Program-made: the position numbers and the translations under genes
DNA from: a virus
Length of the DNA stretch: 29,581 nt
IMG/VR virus record: IMGVR_UViG_3300025266_000031
Span: 1-29,581 of that record
Strand: one strand, 5' to 3'
Shown here: piece by piece, positions 7,327 through 27,249 of the stretch
Numbering within the stretch: the stretch's first letter is position 1
Layout: every line of letters begins with the position of its first letter
Notes under the pieces: model-generated
What the model saw: the letters and a program-made list of their open reading frames with translations, nothing else
Told to the model about the DNA's origin: nothing
Databases searched by the model: none

Positions 7327-7341
7327 TTGATTTAATTTAAT
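7324..7341 (-). promoter_or_regulatory. A/T-only translation-initiation leader of the GNAT-like gene
   Basis: Reading on the minus strand, the 15 bases before the ATG plus the ATG form ATTAAATTAAATCAAATG. The identical 18-mer precedes an unrelated gene at 24707-24724. No purine-rich Shine-Dalgarno element is present. Bacteroidota ribosomes usually rely on A-rich upstream context, so this probably acts as the ribosome landing site. Confidence 0.5.
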
Positions 7342-8767
7342 ATGATGACTCTACATATTGTGAAGAGACTGCAAACAATTCTTTCATTCCGCCTACATCA
7401 GTTACAGTATCTGTTGATATTATTACCGTTGAAAAATAACCTTTTATACCTGTCATATCTGCTCCCCAAACAACTTCACCAGCCGCTGCCGGACTGTTGT
7501 TTACAAGATTAGCCATATATTTGTTTTCTTTTCTAGTGAATCCAGCGTGATTAATTGGCGGGGTTAGTCTAGCAGGGTATTCATTACCAAAATTATCATA
7601 AGAACCTTGGTTATAACTATATATTACTTTTGTAGTGTCTTGAGTACCGTTAACAAACGGATCGTTAACAGCGCTTTCAGGCGTTCCAACGCCATGAGTT
7701 CCTGTTATATCTGACTTAAACGAAGTTATTTCCCAACCATTACTACCTTCGTAATTTAACGTCTTAAATACTTTAGACATGCTTACTTTAGGATTAAATA
7801 TAAAAGTAACATTTGAACTATACTGATCTCCATAGAAATTTGCTCTTTTAGCATTGGGTCCGTAATGAACAAATATAGCTCCATCTTTAAGAGTATAGTA
7901 GTTGCTTTTTAAACTAAAAATTTGATCTGGTTTATAACTCATAAAGCTAGGAAATCCATTAACGGTATCATCAAATGAAACTGTAGAATATGTATTTGTC
8001 CAAGGCTGTAAAGATAAAACATATTGCTTAGAGTGCATGTCCCATCCTCCAACGGCTTTACCTATATCTACACTTCTAGGACCATCTAAAGAACTCAGGT
8101 TGTCTCTAAAGTAATCAGACATGCCATAATTAGATATCTCTGTTAAACCGTCTCTAGAAAGTCTTAAAACAGCGTTTCTATCTTTATCTGTAAAGTATTT
8201 TCTAAATCCATAAATAGCAAAGCTTTCTGGGTTTTTACTTATACCATAATTACCACTAACTGGTCGTATTGCTCCAATAACCTCATTAGAAGAAGTTACT
8301 GTTCCGCCGCCTTCAGCAGAATATATAGCATCTTTATCTATAAGAGCTTGACTAACTTTAGCTTCTTGAAAAATTAATAAATTCGTATTTTCAGCATACA
8401 ATCTTTGTATAGATCCATTTGCAGGATTTACACTTTTAACAATATCTTCTCCAATAGAAAAAACATTAGTATCATTGATGCCTGTTCTAGAATTAAATAT
8501 TCCAGAGTATATCATTGAATTTACTCTACGCGAAGCATTTGGATTGTCTTCTACTAAATAAGCTTTAACTCCTAATTCAACAGAAGTATTGTTATAACCT
8601 CCTCTAATTCTAGATTCTTCTATAGCCCAATTCTTATTATCAACCCCAGCAGTTTTAGGGTATGTATTGTCTCCTCTAGAGCCATTCCAAACAGGTGTAA
8701 TGTCATCTGGGCCTACTGTTTTTCTCAGTATAAAACTGTTAAAATATTTTATTTCTATTACTCCCAT
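7337..8767 (-). CDS. Conserved tail-type virion structural protein, 476 aa
   Basis: This resembles a protein recurrent in marine podovirus-like genomes and placed right after the stabilisation-like protein. Recognisable stretches are the E-S-R-I-R-G-G-Y-N-N motif near residue 51, N-S-R-T-G-I-N-D-T-N near 90, K-V-S-Q-A-L-I-D-K-D-A-I-Y, and R-L-S-R-D-G-L-T-E-I-S-N-Y-G-M near 201, with a conserved-looking C terminus E-L-F-A-V-S-S-Q-Y-V-E-S-S-Y. The content is beta-rich, with many Gly, Asn, Ser and Tyr, as in tail-stem or nozzle proteins. No enzymatic motif or membrane segment is seen. It starts 18 bp after the previous stop behind a TGATAATATAAT leader. A structural role is well supported by context; the exact position in the tail is not. 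Confidence 0.72.
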   Translation of the reverse strand: MGVIEIKYFNSFILRKTVGPDDITPVWNGSRGDNTYPKTAGVDNKNWAIEESRIRGGYNNTSVELGVKAYLVEDNPNASRRVNSMIYSGIFNSRTGINDTNVFSIGEDIVKSVNPANGSIQRLYAENTNLLIFQEAKVSQALIDKDAIYSAEGGGTVTSSNEVIGAIRPVSGNYGISKNPESFAIYGFRKYFTDKDRNAVLRLSRDGLTEISNYGMSDYFRDNLSSLDGPRSVDIGKAVGGWDMHSKQYVLSLQPWTNTYSTVSFDDTVNGFPSFMSYKPDQIFSLKSNYYTLKDGAIFVHYGPNAKRANFYGDQYSSNVTFIFNPKVSMSKVFKTLNYEGSNGWEITSFKSDITGTHGVGTPESAVNDPFVNGTQDTTKVIYSYNQGSYDNFGNEYPARLTPPINHAGFTRKENKYMANLVNNSPAAAGEVVWGADMTGIKGYFSTVIISTDTVTDVGGMKELFAVSSQYVESSY

Positions 8768-8785
8768 ATTATATTATCACTGTTA

Positions 8786-11700
8786 TTAAGTATTACTTAC
8801 ATCGCTAGTAACAGGTTGTGCTGTTGCAACAAATTTTTTACCATCCGCATCAAACCTTGCGACAAATAATCTGTTTGATGTATTTGAAGACGAAAGATCA
8901 CTAGGTGTAACCGGTGCAGTCTGAATTGACGCATTTTCAGTCCCGTCTGCTGAAGGCTCAGCACCTAATGCGCTATAAGAATACCAACTGTTTCCTGTTG
9001 TTCCTCCGCCATCTACCCAAGGTAAATTAGGAATCCATTTTTCTGTTAAATCTGAATTATTATAAAATTGAGTTACATACCTTAAAGACCATTCTCTAGC
9101 CCAAACTTCAACCGATGGCACTTCGTTATCCGCGTAACCAACATTGTTTCTACCTCTAGGCGATACCATATATTGAAAAGACGTTTCTGGGAACTTGTAA
9201 TAAAAATCACCAAAAGATAATTTTACTTTTATATTGGAATTAACAAGATTTGCTCCATTTTCACCAAATATAGTTGGAGTTCTTAAATTAGTTGGAGTTG
9301 GTGTTATGTCTAATGTTTTTCCACTTGTATTTGGAGTTTTTTGATCATTAGGAGTTTGAGGGTATCTAATTAAAAGTCTATATTCTCCAAACTTATCATT
9401 TGTAGTATTGTCATAGCTTTCGTCTTTTCCAAAAGCAAACACTTTAGAAGCTGTAGAAGTTGTTGTACCTTGAGAACTTGAAGCAGGATACGTTGTAGAT
9501 GTTTCTATCGTGTCTTGTTGTAAAACACCTCCTCCAATACCGTTAACACTTTCGGTACTATCGTTTAATACTCCAGTAACCCCAAAACTAGATGTGCTAA
9601 TTATTGCGCCTTCATTAGTGCCATCAAAACCTATAATTAATCTACCACCAGCGCCACCGCCACTTCCAACGTTTTGTTGTGTTGCTCCAAATTTCATTTC
9701 TTGGCCTTCTACATCTGTTGCGGTTGTCCAAGCTGTATTTGCATCGGGTCTATATTGTAAATAAGCTGCTCTAATTATACCTATTTGCTGAGAAGTTGTA
9801 GGATAACCTTGACTAGCGTCTTCATAAGGCCACATTGTAAAACTAAAATCAACTTTAATATAAGCAGTTCCTACGGTTAAATCGTTACCTGCGCTTCCAG
9901 CTGCCGCGTCAAAAGCACTTGGTCTGTAGTTTGAATTTTTCCAAGAATACAGGTTGCCATTATTATCTTTGTAATTGGGGGTAAGTAGATTTAGATTACT
10001 TTCAGGCGAAGCTACAAGTCCATTTTCAGGTAATTCTAAACTCTGGTACGCAGCTCTTCCTTCTGTTCCAGATGCGTTGTTTTGCATGCCAACTGGAGAT
10101 TCAGAGTCTATTCTACTGCCTATCATGGTAGCATAACTACTTTGAGCTCCCCAATACACTCCTACAGACTCTAATCCTCCTGTTAAGTCAATGTTTTCTT
10201 TTTTTCCAAAACTATCATTAATTGGAGCTTCTCCAAATAAAACAGAAATAGGGGTGGTTAATTCATCAGTAACTCCTCCTGAATCAGTTAAAACTAAATC
10301 AAACGTATATATTCCAAAAGCAGTTCCACTAGTTTCTGTTAAAACTCCAGTTTCTGAATTTAATGACAAAGCAGGTAATTTTGGATTTTGATTTATAATA
10401 TTAAAAATTAAATCTTTTTTGTTTTGTTCAGCAGTACCAACAAAACCATTAACGCCTGCAAAAGTTGTTACTGGATTTGTAAGAGTTCTATTAGACGGCG
10501 CAGCTATAGGCGATCCTCCACCCACAGGTACAAGTGTTGGAGATACGTTTATTAAATTTTGATTTGTAATTGTAACTGGTTGAAATGTTGGATTTGCTAT
10601 TGATGGATCATCATTTCTAACGTTAAAAGTAAAAATAAAAGTATTTTTGCTAGCTTCAGGACTGTAATAAATAGAAGTAACAATACGCAGATTATACTTA
10701 TCATCTTGACCAGCTTCGTTAAATTCATCTAAAGCCCAATTAGAAGTAATGTTATCACCGTTTGCGTTAAACACGCTCACAAGACTTACAGTGCTAAGAG
10801 CCATAGCTTGATCTGCAAAATCAACCTCTATAGCTGGAGAAAAAGGAAGTGCTGTTGCAAAGTTACCAACAACAAAACCTTCTGTTTGAACAAAATTAAA
10901 ATTTATCCACCCGCTAACGCTATTATTAACGCCCGCTATAGCGTTTAGATCAGATATTAAACCAGCTGTGCTTGTTTCCCAGAATATTTCAAGTAAAGAT
11001 TCTACAGGTGCGGTTTCAAAGATACCTAAATGTATATTATATGCGTCTTTATAGTTTGCTTGTTGTAAAGATCCTATAGGGTTTCCAGCATTATCTCCTT
11101 GTGCTAGTCTAACCAAGTAAGGGTTACTATCTTGTTGATAAACAGTAGAATAAGGAGGTCCAATAGTTCCTCCGCCTCCAGTGTCGTCTTTGAACATCTC
11201 GTCTTGAGTTGCTATAGTTGAAACAGTTTGAGGATTAATTATTGGATAATAAGGTATGTTTATAGTGGGTGGCGTTGCAGCTGGCGAAGGAGTTACTCTG
11301 CCATATAACTCTACAGAGCTTCTAAACTGCTTTTGATCTGGTCCTACCTCAGTTAAATCTTTTGGCACTTTATTTATATTATCACCTAATATTGTTATAA
11401 AAGCAACTGTATTTACAGGATCAGGCTCAGTAGTTGCGCCTGCTCCATGATCTGGATAACCATTTAATATACCAGGAACAAAAACATTATAATATTCTTG
11501 CTCTGTTTGCTTTACAACAACTTTATAAGAATACCAACCTAAAGGATTATAACTGCTACTTCCTACATTATCATTATACAAACCAGGCCAACCATCTGTA
11601 AGTCTTGGACCGTCTGAAGATATAGCGGTATTTATTAAAACCTTTAAAGAATCACCAGGCCAAGAATTTATTGAATTTGTTTCAGCAGGAGTTTCTAAAG

Positions 11701-13168
11701 CCGGATTAGGCATGTATTTATGATAAAAAGTAGAACCTCCATAGGTTATTCCATCTACAGTTTGCGTAATTGAATTTACAGGAGACAGTATAGTAGTAGA
11801 TTGTCTTCCGTATCTATCTGAAAGCACAAATCCTACTTGATAATTTCTATTTTGTTTTACCGTGTGCTCTGGGTATTCAAAAATACTAGTAAAACCGTTT
11901 GTTGGGTTACTAGAATTTTTAAGAGTTACCGCTACATCATAATCTATTGTAGCTGGTGGCGTATGTTTATCTTGAAAATTACTATAAACTATTCTATTTC
12001 CTATAACTTCTTGACCATAAGCTCTAACAGGAACCTTGTCGTATACTCTTATTATTTCGCTTTCAGGAAGAGTTTTATAAGGTTTTCTTGATTGATAATC
12101 ATACAGATAAGTTGTAGTTTGATTTAACGTGTCGTCTGAATTTCTACTAAATACGTCAAAAGGAACAGAGTCTAAAACTTTAACATTTAAAGAATCAGAT
12201 TCTTTGTATAATATGTCTATTTCAGAAACATCTAAAGTTGAGTTCAAAACATCCGCATTAAAAGGAAGTGAAATATACAAGCCAACGTTGTTAACTTTAT
12301 TTTCCATAAACTGAACTATAGTACTTCTATACGCTTTATCTTCATCTCCAGGTAAAAAATAACCGTCTTGCTTTGGTATGAAAGCCTCTTGAGTAAAAGG
12401 AGCTAATATAGAATACTCTCCATCGTTAAATTTAAACCTATAACTAAACATTACAAATTTGCTTTCTAAATAATCTGGATCTCCTGGCCAGTTTTGGTCA
12501 TAAAAAGGATTTGCAGTACTTCCATCTGGAAGAGTTTCTGAAGTAACATCCTGCATTGAAGTGTAGTAAGTTCCGCCTACACTGTAGTACAAATTAATAG
12601 CTTGATAAGGATTATATTTAGCAACAGATATTAAATCTTCTGATACATAGTAGGTTCCATCACTAGCTAAATCAACATTTAATTTCCTAGGTTGATTTCT
12701 ATTGTCGGTCCAAAATAATAAATTTTCTAAAACATTAATTCCATATATAGGGTTTGTAGTGGAAAAATTTAAAAAAGCACCTTGAGCCACTACAGAAACA
12801 TCACTTGTTAAAATGTTATATGCATATATGTAATTGTTAGCTGAAGAACTATAAGTTATATTACTAGTTTGAGGTTCTGTATAATCTGTTAAAAAAACAT
12901 ATACAGTAGAAGAATTAGTATCAGCAAAAACCCCTATAGATTTTAAATTACATCCACAACCAGAAATAACACTAAAATCAACATTAGCGCCGGTTGAAGT
13001 TGAAGCTGGTAAATTACCTACAACATTTTCTAAAGCACCTACGTCTTCGCCTTCTGATTTACTAACTTGTATATTTTGTCCATCACGATATTCACCTGAA
13101 GGTAGTAATCTACTATCCAGGTCTTTATTCATTTTAGACTTTATAAAAGCATTTTTAACTTCAGCCAT
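8786..13168 (-). CDS. Large stabilisation-like (muzzle/tail stem) structural protein with Ig-like insert, 1460 aa
   Basis: The N terminus (K-N-A-F-I-K-S-K-M-N-K-D-L-D, then L-L-P-S-G-E-Y-R-D-G and D-V-G-A-L-E-N-V-V-G-N) is a signature I recognise from a marine phage structural family related in role to P22-type tail stabilisation proteins. Residues up to about 880 are beta-rich with many aromatic residues. At about 900-990 an Ig/cadherin-like domain follows (L-S-L-N-S-E-T-G-V-L-T, then G-I-Y-T-F-D-L-V-L-T-D). The C-terminal third returns to tail-like sequence with E-V-W-A-R-E-W-S-L-R-Y near 1365. It lies 5 bp after the connector gene and 18 bp before the 476 aa tail-type gene. No cysteine-rich, membrane or catalytic features are seen. 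It is probably a multi-copy tail-stem protein closing the portal. Confidence 0.75.
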   Translation of the reverse strand: MAEVKNAFIKSKMNKDLDSRLLPSGEYRDGQNIQVSKSEGEDVGALENVVGNLPASTSTGANVDFSVISGCGCNLKSIGVFADTNSSTVYVFLTDYTEPQTSNITYSSSANNYIYAYNILTSDVSVVAQGAFLNFSTTNPIYGINVLENLLFWTDNRNQPRKLNVDLASDGTYYVSEDLISVAKYNPYQAINLYYSVGGTYYTSMQDVTSETLPDGSTANPFYDQNWPGDPDYLESKFVMFSYRFKFNDGEYSILAPFTQEAFIPKQDGYFLPGDEDKAYRSTIVQFMENKVNNVGLYISLPFNADVLNSTLDVSEIDILYKESDSLNVKVLDSVPFDVFSRNSDDTLNQTTTYLYDYQSRKPYKTLPESEIIRVYDKVPVRAYGQEVIGNRIVYSNFQDKHTPPATIDYDVAVTLKNSSNPTNGFTSIFEYPEHTVKQNRNYQVGFVLSDRYGRQSTTILSPVNSITQTVDGITYGGSTFYHKYMPNPALETPAETNSINSWPGDSLKVLINTAISSDGPRLTDGWPGLYNDNVGSSSYNPLGWYSYKVVVKQTEQEYYNVFVPGILNGYPDHGAGATTEPDPVNTVAFITILGDNINKVPKDLTEVGPDQKQFRSSVELYGRVTPSPAATPPTINIPYYPIINPQTVSTIATQDEMFKDDTGGGGTIGPPYSTVYQQDSNPYLVRLAQGDNAGNPIGSLQQANYKDAYNIHLGIFETAPVESLLEIFWETSTAGLISDLNAIAGVNNSVSGWINFNFVQTEGFVVGNFATALPFSPAIEVDFADQAMALSTVSLVSVFNANGDNITSNWALDEFNEAGQDDKYNLRIVTSIYYSPEASKNTFIFTFNVRNDDPSIANPTFQPVTITNQNLINVSPTLVPVGGGSPIAAPSNRTLTNPVTTFAGVNGFVGTAEQNKKDLIFNIINQNPKLPALSLNSETGVLTETSGTAFGIYTFDLVLTDSGGVTDELTTPISVLFGEAPINDSFGKKENIDLTGGLESVGVYWGAQSSYATMIGSRIDSESPVGMQNNASGTEGRAAYQSLELPENGLVASPESNLNLLTPNYKDNNGNLYSWKNSNYRPSAFDAAAGSAGNDLTVGTAYIKVDFSFTMWPYEDASQGYPTTSQQIGIIRAAYLQYRPDANTAWTTATDVEGQEMKFGATQQNVGSGGGAGGRLIIGFDGTNEGAIISTSSFGVTGVLNDSTESVNGIGGGVLQQDTIETSTTYPASSSQGTTTSTASKVFAFGKDESYDNTTNDKFGEYRLLIRYPQTPNDQKTPNTSGKTLDITPTPTNLRTPTIFGENGANLVNSNIKVKLSFGDFYYKFPETSFQYMVSPRGRNNVGYADNEVPSVEVWAREWSLRYVTQFYNNSDLTEKWIPNLPWVDGGGTTGNSWYSYSALGAEPSADGTENASIQTAPVTPSDLSSSNTSNRLFVARFDADGKKFVATAQPVTSDVSNT

Positions 13169-26053: not shown

Positions 26054-26371
26054 TTATTTTTTAGTTTTAGTGTATGCTTCTTTTTCCCAAGGAAGGTTTT
26101 TAGCACCTTCTTTCATTGAAGCTCTTGAGTATTTTTTACCTTCCCAATACACGTTGTCATCATCATAATCTAATCTACCGTCTTTCATTTGCTGTATATG
26201 TACCATCTCGTGGTCTATGACGTCGTCTATCTGTTTAGGATCTTTTATTTTGTTATTTAAAGTAATGCTTCCATTGTTGTTAGCTTTACCTAATACACCA
26301 TCTTCCATATCTACATTGTAAATAGGAGTGTTATCAGTACTGTAAGGCGCACCTTTCATTATAAAGCTCAT
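26054..26371 (-). CDS. Small HExxH zinc-peptidase-like protein, 105 aa
   Basis: The centre reads I-D-H-E-M-V-H-I-Q-Q with H54, E55 and H58, the HExxH signature of zinc metallopeptidases; a downstream acidic pair at L-P-W-E-K-E-A-Y (E96, E98) could supply the third ligand. The N terminus carries M-K-G-A-P, resembling the short S/A-P motif of neighbouring small proteins, so translation might start at that inner ATG (26357-26359) instead. The length is minimal for a peptidase, and it may be a minigluzincin-like enzyme or an inactive binder. It sits two genes before the holin, so a peptidoglycan or processing role is conceivable. The substrate cannot be told. Confidence 0.62.
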   Translation of the reverse strand: MSFIMKGAPYSTDNTPIYNVDMEDGVLGKANNNGSITLNNKIKDPKQIDDVIDHEMVHIQQMKDGRLDYDDDNVYWEGKKYSRASMKEGAKNLPWEKEAYTKTKK

Positions 26372-26374
26372 AAA

Positions 26375-26533
26375 TTATTGTTTATAAGGAAAAACTTTAT
26401 TTAAAGTTTCTTTTCTTTGTTGACAACCACAGGGAATATTTAATCCCTGTGATACTTTGTCAACGAAGGTTTTGATTCCAGTTGCTTCTGTAAATTTCTC
26501 TACGCTATCGCCGAAACCTTGTGATTTTCTCAT
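26375..26533 (-). CDS. Conserved small protein with CGC motif, 52 aa
   Basis: Short gene found by translating the gap between 26371 and 26533. It starts at ATG 26531-26533, overlapping the preceding stop by one base (TAATG), and ends at TAA 26375-26377. The protein has G-F-G-D-S-V-E-K-F-T-E-A-T-G-I at the front and I-P-C-G-C-Q-Q-R-K-E-T-L-N-K-V-F-P-Y at the end, a pattern I recognise from several phage genomes. The C-x-C pair could bind metal or form a disulfide. Function unknown. Confidence 0.72.
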   Translation of the reverse strand: MRKSQGFGDSVEKFTEATGIKTFVDKVSQGLNIPCGCQQRKETLNKVFPYKQ

Positions 26534-26931
26534 TATGCAAATACAGCTGTTCCCCAGAACATTTGAGCTCCATTTGGAAGCGCTACTGTAGCTGCTGCTT
26601 GGTCATTACCTAAAGAACAAGTAGTTACTACGCCACCTGGGTTAGCCGTTATAGCTGAATGTACTGCGTCTTCTAAAGGATTTCTTTGTCCGTTTACAAA
26701 TGCTGGAGCTACTAAAGCAGATTGACTAGTTGAAGGCTGAAGAGTTAAAGATGTGTAACCAGCGATAGTATTTCTACCAGTAAGTCCAATAACTACACTA
26801 GATTGAGCTCCTGCTGCTCCTGCTGCTGCTACTGTTGTGATGTCGTCTACGTTTATCAAGATCGGTGAGATCGGGGCAGCTGGTTGAGTAGCGCCTGTAA
26901 GCGTAATGTTAAATTTGATGAATTTTGCCAT
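26533..26931 (-). CDS. Beta-rich Ala/Thr/Gly structural protein, 132 aa
   Basis: The protein opens with K-F-I-K-F-N-I-T-L-T-G and is dominated by Ala, Thr, Val and Gly in strand-turn rhythm, ending P-N-G-A-Q-M-F-W-G-T-A-V-F-A. It resembles in composition the 199 aa protein at 24743-25342 and could be a head decoration or other surface protein. Its leader is a run of six ACAAACA heptamers ending 2 bp before the ATG, unlike any other gene here, which suggests special, perhaps high, translation. Its stop overlaps the start of the 52 aa gene. No domain family recognised. Confidence 0.62.
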   Translation of the reverse strand: MAKFIKFNITLTGATQPAAPISPILINVDDITTVAAAGAAGAQSSVVIGLTGRNTIAGYTSLTLQPSTSQSALVAPAFVNGQRNPLEDAVHSAITANPGGVVTTCSLGNDQAAATVALPNGAQMFWGTAVFA

Positions 26932-26933
26932 TG

Positions 26934-26975
26934 TGTTTGTTGTTTGTTGTTTGTTGTTTGTTGTTTGTTGTTTGT
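26934..26975 (-). repeat. Six tandem ACAAACA heptamers in the leader of the 132 aa gene
   Basis: The plus strand shows TGTTTGT six times without a mismatch; on the transcribed strand this is (ACAAACA)6, ending 2 bases before the ATG. The array contains no U or G, so the mRNA leader would be unstructured. It may act as a ribosome-loading enhancer, and copy number could vary by slippage. Confidence 0.9.
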
Positions 26976-27006
26976 TGGCTAGGTTTTAGACAGTCCTAAT
27001 CTGTTT

Positions 27007-27249
27007 TTATTCGTAATCTTTTTTGGATTTACTGTCATCACCTTTTTTACCACCATACATCATAGCGGGTGATTCTTGTTTTCCATACATAGATAATGGA
27101 GATGAATGAGAATGCTTAGACATAAATGAACCTCCACTAGCGTGTGAAGCTATAGGGTTATCATTCATTAAATTTTTCTTTTCTTGACCTGACGATTCAG
27201 AACCGTAGCCTTTGTTTAGGTTTTTTACTGGAGTTTTTTCTTTATACAT
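27007..27249 (-). CDS. Small disordered Met/Gly/Ser-rich protein with SP motifs, 80 aa
   Basis: I chose ATG at 27247-27249: it has the leader TAAAAAATAAAACT, identical to that of the 38 aa gene at 28292-28408. An in-frame ATG 33 bp upstream (27280-27282), directly abutting the previous stop, would add 11 residues and cannot be excluded. The protein contains G-G-S-F-M-S-K-H-S-H-S-S-P-L-S-M-Y-G-K and then S-P-A-M-M-Y-G-G-K, followed by a charged tail. No fold is predictable. The F-M-S-K-H-S string is shared with the protein at 25729-26049, and the SP-x-M/L pieces with other small proteins here. Confidence 0.6.
   Translation of the reverse strand: MYKEKTPVKNLNKGYGSESSGQEKKNLMNDNPIASHASGGSFMSKHSHSSPLSMYGKQESPAMMYGGKKGDDSKSKKDYE

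Follow-up and report, generated by a model that had tools for sequence, protein, structure and literature searches.

A putative two-part mRNA leader, a small pseudoknot with a nearly G-free spacer, precedes one gene family in uncultured Bacteroidota phages

In the leader of bacteriophage T4 gene 32, a pseudoknot of about 28 nt precedes an unstructured stretch of more than 40 nt that contains short repeats, and the whole is carried on a polycistronic mRNA (PMC535899, PMC3014915). This mRNA, which is cleaved immediately 5' of the pseudoknot, is highly stable, and a 2010 review considered the gene 32 operator to be perhaps the sole viral pseudoknot involved in translational autoregulation (PMC3014915). 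In F. johnsoniae, ribosome profiling and reporter tests indicate that A at positions -3, -6 and -12/-13 raises translation; the Kozak-like A-rich initiation regions of Flavobacterium and other Bacteroidota have in common A at these positions and low structure (PMC6847099). Compact pseudoknots are also found in several small leaders represented in Rfam, including preQ1-I, STAXI and Bacteroidota motifs. The preQ1-I element is located in 5' leaders, and Bacteroidota do not use Shine-Dalgarno (SD) pairing in initiation.

The window, the whole 29,581-base stretch of DNA analyzed here, is a virus record with a capsid protein 43-50% identical to its counterparts in phages of Flavobacterium and Maribacter and in an uncultured podovirus. 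Its capsid, terminase and portal genes are homologous to those of the Elemovirus-like podoviruses of Flavobacteriia, and the order terminase, portal, capsid is that of Elemovirus. On the basis of the capsid identity and this gene order, the host is very probably a Bacteroidota bacterium. The Elemovirus-like isolates that were checked have neither the leader described below nor the gene that it serves, and no isolated phage with either was found among the isolates searched. Elsewhere in the window, the proteins encoded at 7337-8767 and 8786-13168 match separate parts of PHROG 14478, a virion structural protein; in elemo and MW202828 the corresponding place is taken by one gene, and the large virion protein appears to be split in two in this phage.

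The array of ACAAACA heptamers that a sequence-only reading of the window had singled out is real: its six units are free of mismatches, and it stops two bases (CA) short of the ATG at 26931. With a TRF score of 88, it outranks every other tandem repeat in the window (next best 60) and is found in none of 100 dinucleotide shuffles, even with 3 mismatches allowed. Because the same six units recur on contigs from 13 other metagenome records, an assembly artefact is rejected. G is absent from the 47 nt upstream of the ATG and so, by direct reading, is U. The array itself is indeed unable to fold, but the claim that the whole leader cannot do so overlooked its upstream half, where an H-type pseudoknot adjoins the array on its 5' side. 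The intergenic gap holding the array is 75 nt long. Other gaps are mostly a few bases, as that reading had it, though not strictly, as three of 161, 77 and 54 nt appear in the ORF table. Comparison with relatives indicates that the heptamer repeat is the 3' tail of a conserved two-part mRNA leader, composed of the small pseudoknot and about 40 nearly G-free bases (Table 1), which occurs on hundreds of uncultured Bacteroidota-phage contigs before one small gene family.

Table 1. Features of the leader and its flanking genes, in window coordinates.
Feature	Position	Strand	Basis or remark
Preceding gene, 91 aa	27007..27282	minus	ORF table; slot filled by unrelated genes in relatives
UAA stop codon of preceding gene	27007..27009	minus	2 nt before the pseudoknot
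H-type RNA pseudoknot, ACAG-AU-UAGG-A-CUGU-CUAAAA-CCUA	26980..27004	minus	Sequence and covariation across relatives
Stem 1, 5' strand, ACAG	27001..27004	minus	Pairs with 26990-26993; nearly invariant in relatives
Stem 2, 5' strand, UAGG, within the stem 1 loop	26995..26998	minus	Compensatory changes with 26980-26983
Stem 1, 3' strand, CUGU	26990..26993	minus	Pairs with 27001-27004; nearly invariant
Stem 2, 3' strand, CCUA	26980..26983	minus	Follows the A-rich loop 26984-26989; compensatory changes
(ACAAACA)6 array	26934..26975	minus	Sequence, tandem-repeat and shuffle analysis, comparative composition; G- and U-free part of the leader, putative initiation landing region
Leader-served gene, 132 aa, MAKFIKF..., ANPGG family, probable virion protein	26533..26931	minus	ORF table, relatives, synteny

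Relatives were gathered by a protein search (80 loci) and an alignment search (80 further loci), with more added from nucleotide patterns. In its general form, the pseudoknot has a 4-bp stem 1 (ACAG/CUGU), a stem 2 of 3-5 bp and an A-rich crossing loop. Stem 2 shows compensatory pairs among the relatives, namely AGG/CCT, GAG/CTC, GGG/CCC, TGG/CCA and AGA/TCT. In a rule-based set, the downstream triplet was defined blind to the loop, giving the classes CCT, TCT, CTC, CCC and CCA; 20 of the 25 unique loop/tail-class pairs are complementary, as compared to a permutation mean of 6.5 and a maximum of 15 in 20,000. The classes other than CCT were retrieved by protein-based searches, so pairing was not built into their retrieval. 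On 43 sequences of equal length, 92.4% of cells are paired under the named structure, and sliding it brings the figure to no more than 44%. Changes on both sides affect 19 cells, a count reached by none of 500 shuffles. Some rows here came from patterns with pairing built in, and the 25-pair test is the cleaner of the two. Covariation was counted on these two sets because a first MAFFT alignment of all pseudoknots misaligned the variable-length loop. An enlarged stem-2 count was set aside as evidence, since two of its three nucleotide patterns had pairing built in. On a FastTree phylogeny of the protein, the stem-2 class changes 47 times, but the resolution of this tree is poor and recombination between leader and gene is possible, so that only a minimum is claimed, of five classes and at least four events. 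Stem 1 has little covariation of its own because it hardly varies, and the folding energy of the region is unremarkable (z -0.43).

The pseudoknot is frequent, but not universal, among the leaders of the family. Among 98 leaders retrieved protein-first, stem 2 passes a strict test in 72 and pairs in a further 4 following one extra C, while the remainder include 11 with a variant AGUAAA-loop hairpin and no visible stem 2, one with a CGGG hairpin and 7 with no hairpin. The variant hairpin, CAG-AGUAAA-CUG or its equivalent with an AGAAAA loop, is followed by an A-rich stretch and UCA, again with no visible stem 2 (L053, L062, L065, L091, L093, L099, L235). Tandem paralogues of the leader gene are present in L075 (2249, 2615), L165 (3596, 3923) and L170, with a full pseudoknot before the first copy; the second copy is hairpin-less in L075 and has only a chance-like hairpin in L165.

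In Rfam 15, the window gave two far-below-threshold chance matches and 13 relatives gave none at gathering score, and a known riboswitch or RNA family is thus rejected. The small-pseudoknot leaders mentioned above share compactness with this one, but none of them matches it there, and the leader is not described in the literature searched (open-access papers). The nearest likeness is to the gene 32 operators of T4, T2 and RB69, which combine a pseudoknot with UUAAA repeats. Both have a small H-type pseudoknot (here covarying in stem 2), a repeat-containing, unstructured leader of about 40 nt or more that extends to the start codon, and a polycistronic setting. However, the sequence differs, the spacer is A/C rather than A/U, the pseudoknot lies directly behind an unrelated stop codon, and the presumed host is SD-less. 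The gene also does not encode a single-strand-binding protein homologous to gp32, but an acidic protein lacking any match in Pfam, PHROGs or PDB. The element resembles the gene 32 leader in anatomy, with membership failing on the protein.

The element is strictly associated with one gene family. Three nucleotide patterns recovered 216 distinct copies from a viral collection, 212 of them before this family and 4 cut by contig ends, 2 of which already show MAKFI. A structural regular expression run over 2.46 Mb gave 134 matches, of which 130 lie at the family, 2 are at contig ends and 2 are due to chance; a reversed control gave 0. No more than one copy per record is present in 20 records of 42-69 kb. 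Two bacterial assemblies, a Sphingobacteriales MAG and one labelled Aliivibrio, carry the element before the same family. A DNA-level element that happens to lie before the gene, either a packaging site or an origin of replication that has a dyad and iteron-like repeats, would account for roughly one copy per record and for the combination of a dyad with tandem 6-7-nt repeats. It is nevertheless very improbable: the repeat units are unconserved between lineages, stem 2 is a crossing helix that makes sense only in a single strand, and in every case the ATG of the one gene marks the end of the element, with A preferred at -3, -6 and -12.

Upstream, the leader is not tied to any particular gene. 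The preceding slot is occupied by about 58 unrelated protein clusters. In 205 of 222 contexts, the stop codon of the upstream gene ends within a range from 8 nt before the pseudoknot to 1 nt inside it. The stop codon is UAA in 213 of the 222, and the frame relative to the next ATG is mixed, with all three present, for which reason a stop-codon readthrough or frameshift pseudoknot is rejected. The Bacteroidota -7 box (TAnnTTTG) is not enriched upstream (5 seen, 4.3 expected), and there is no space for a promoter between the stop codon and the pseudoknot, so a promoter in the gap is likewise rejected. Taken together, the unrelated upstream clusters, the position of the stop codon and the lack of a -7 box argue that the leader works within a polycistronic transcript, behind arbitrary genes. 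With the same leader abutted by unrelated genes, it also marks a recombination junction.

This position coincides exactly with the junction between two cistrons, where no trace of a promoter is seen. It would also suit a pseudoknot that serves chiefly in RNA processing or stability. In that role the pseudoknot would mark or protect the 5' end generated when a late mRNA, mono- or polycistronic, is processed, and T4 gene 32 provides the precedent (PMC3014915). We consider this unlikely as the chief role, because processing alone does not explain a G-free spacer of 40 nt, although it overlaps in part with the explanation preferred below.

The composition of the spacer is consistent with a role in initiation. 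Over 189 unique leaders it is 65% A, 19% C, 15% T and 1.1% G, and 145 of the 189 36-nt leaders are G-free. A is present in 98% at -3, 88% at -6, 88% at -12 and 92% at -13. These are the positions favored in Kozak-like initiation regions of Bacteroidota, and the array, unable to pair with itself, has the low structure that accompanies them. In this case, however, G is missing from all of the 36-40 nt, which are repetitive, linked to a pseudoknot and confined to one phage gene family. The syntenic neighbor genes of the same loci, capsid gene included, have leaders with more G, or with more T and less C. The suggestion that an unstructured G-free leader may boost initiation in a host that does not use SD pairing is thus borne out as far as sequence comparison extends.

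The copy number of the heptamer is fixed among close relatives. Exactly six units occur in 13 of 13 (92-94% protein identity; separate metagenome records), which span at least three different upstream contexts, and a fourteenth differs by a single substitution, in its first unit, with its length unchanged. In more distant relatives, the heptamer is lost but the character of the leader is kept. Strong periodicity is detected in 36% of 182 unique leaders, compared with 0.6% of shuffles, with units mostly of 6 nt; those of other lineages include AAAAAC, AAACAC, AACACT and AAACAT and are nearly G-free throughout. The distance from pseudoknot to start codon is 31-55 nt, mostly 39-46, among the copies recovered by pattern. 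From these comparisons, the heptamer is one lineage's form of a broader leader design.

The earlier suggestion that repeat slippage tunes expression as a phase-variation switch does not survive this comparison. Perfect short tandem repeats can slip, and whole-unit length differences do exist, but only between diverged relatives (L142/L159, L093/L100). A phase-variation locus is expected to vary in copy number among close relatives, and across these related contigs the number stays at six, the only change being a substitution, while other lineages use other units. Leader-length change by itself has no consequence for the reading frame, and so could not switch the gene off in that way, and the spacer is held within its range of lengths. 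Slippage is scarcely credible as the function of the repeats.

The served gene lies upstream of the GroES-like, terminase, portal and capsid genes, in a conserved order and on the same strand. Because it sits in this structural block, its product is probably a virion protein. Most members of the family are 92-159 aa long, and NPG is invariant inside the conserved ANPGG motif. The proteins are acidic (median pI 5.45; K+R 5.7%). No significant family or fold match was obtained in Pfam, PHROGs, PDB sequences, or Foldseek searches of PDB and viral libraries, and the predicted structure is alpha/beta (pLDDT 79-82); the proposal of a beta-rich surface protein thus finds no support. The downstream neighbor, at 26054-26371 in the window, is kept in 193 loci and has a DHEMVH motif resembling a zinc-protease signature; it matches only PHROGs without an assigned function.

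With a leader restricted to a single gene, autogenous control has to be taken seriously as a rival. By analogy to gp32 on T4 gene 32 mRNA, the product (or its assembly state) would bind the pseudoknot, spread along or occlude the A/C repeat leader, and stop its own translation once the needs of the virion are met. The anatomy is strikingly near that of T4 gene 32 (PMC535899, PMC3014915), and a single copy at most in each large record, always before the one family, is what gene-specific control predicts. However, the protein is small and acidic with no recognizable nucleic-acid-binding fold, the hairpin is missing from 7 of the 98 protein-first leaders, and repeat units and stem-2 letters vary so freely that recognition would need to be by shape. 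Such an operator is a genuine possibility, if not the likeliest one. It is possible, though slightly more doubtful still, that the element represents a phage leader RNA family, undescribed in the literature searched, that acts as a gene-specific autogenous operator for a virion protein, is independent in origin of T4 gene 32, and is widespread in uncultured Bacteroidota phages.

We lean towards a different reading, which on balance seems probable, namely that this is a dedicated two-part leader that makes translation of a probable virion protein both strong and insulated. The setting would be a late polycistronic transcript in a Bacteroidota host without SD pairing. One half would be the small H-type pseudoknot, set on the stop codon of whichever gene precedes it, and the other the single-stranded A/C-rich spacer, often built from 6- or 7-nt tandem units and ending at the AUG. 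The spacer could provide an open landing site and thereby strong, independent initiation. The pseudoknot may isolate it from the variable upstream gene, by blocking upstream sequence from pairing with the spacer, and/or may form a protected, stabilizing 5' end after processing. The repeats would then be a means of building an unstructured leader rather than a switch. Against this preferred reading, a leader that served strong expression alone would be expected before the major capsid gene as well, whose actual leader is A/U-rich and has no pseudoknot. Being confined so strictly to one gene, the element fits gene-specific control equally well or better. The incomplete distribution of the pseudoknot, the near invariance of stem 1, the unremarkable folding energy and the lack of an isolate with the element among those searched also count against it.

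Little is known of how phages of SD-less Bacteroidota make one cistron of a polycistronic mRNA strong. A compact (about 75 nt), gene-specific leader present in hundreds of viral contigs could provide a well-defined translation module for such hosts, and may possibly be a second pseudoknot-plus-repeat operator in phages.

In one clade (L235, L254, L264, L273, L278), the spacer contains a second small hairpin of the GGCTTAACAGCC type. Unrelated phages (L101, L106, L109, L111 and the L086 group) also have arrays of (ACAAACA)4 or more, placed shortly before start codons or purine-rich SD-like stretches. In L101, L106, L109 and L111, the same heptamer array stands just 5' of the start region, but it precedes a purine-rich SD-like AGGA or AAGG and is accompanied by neither this pseudoknot nor this gene; the use of the heptamer in these leaders is convergent.
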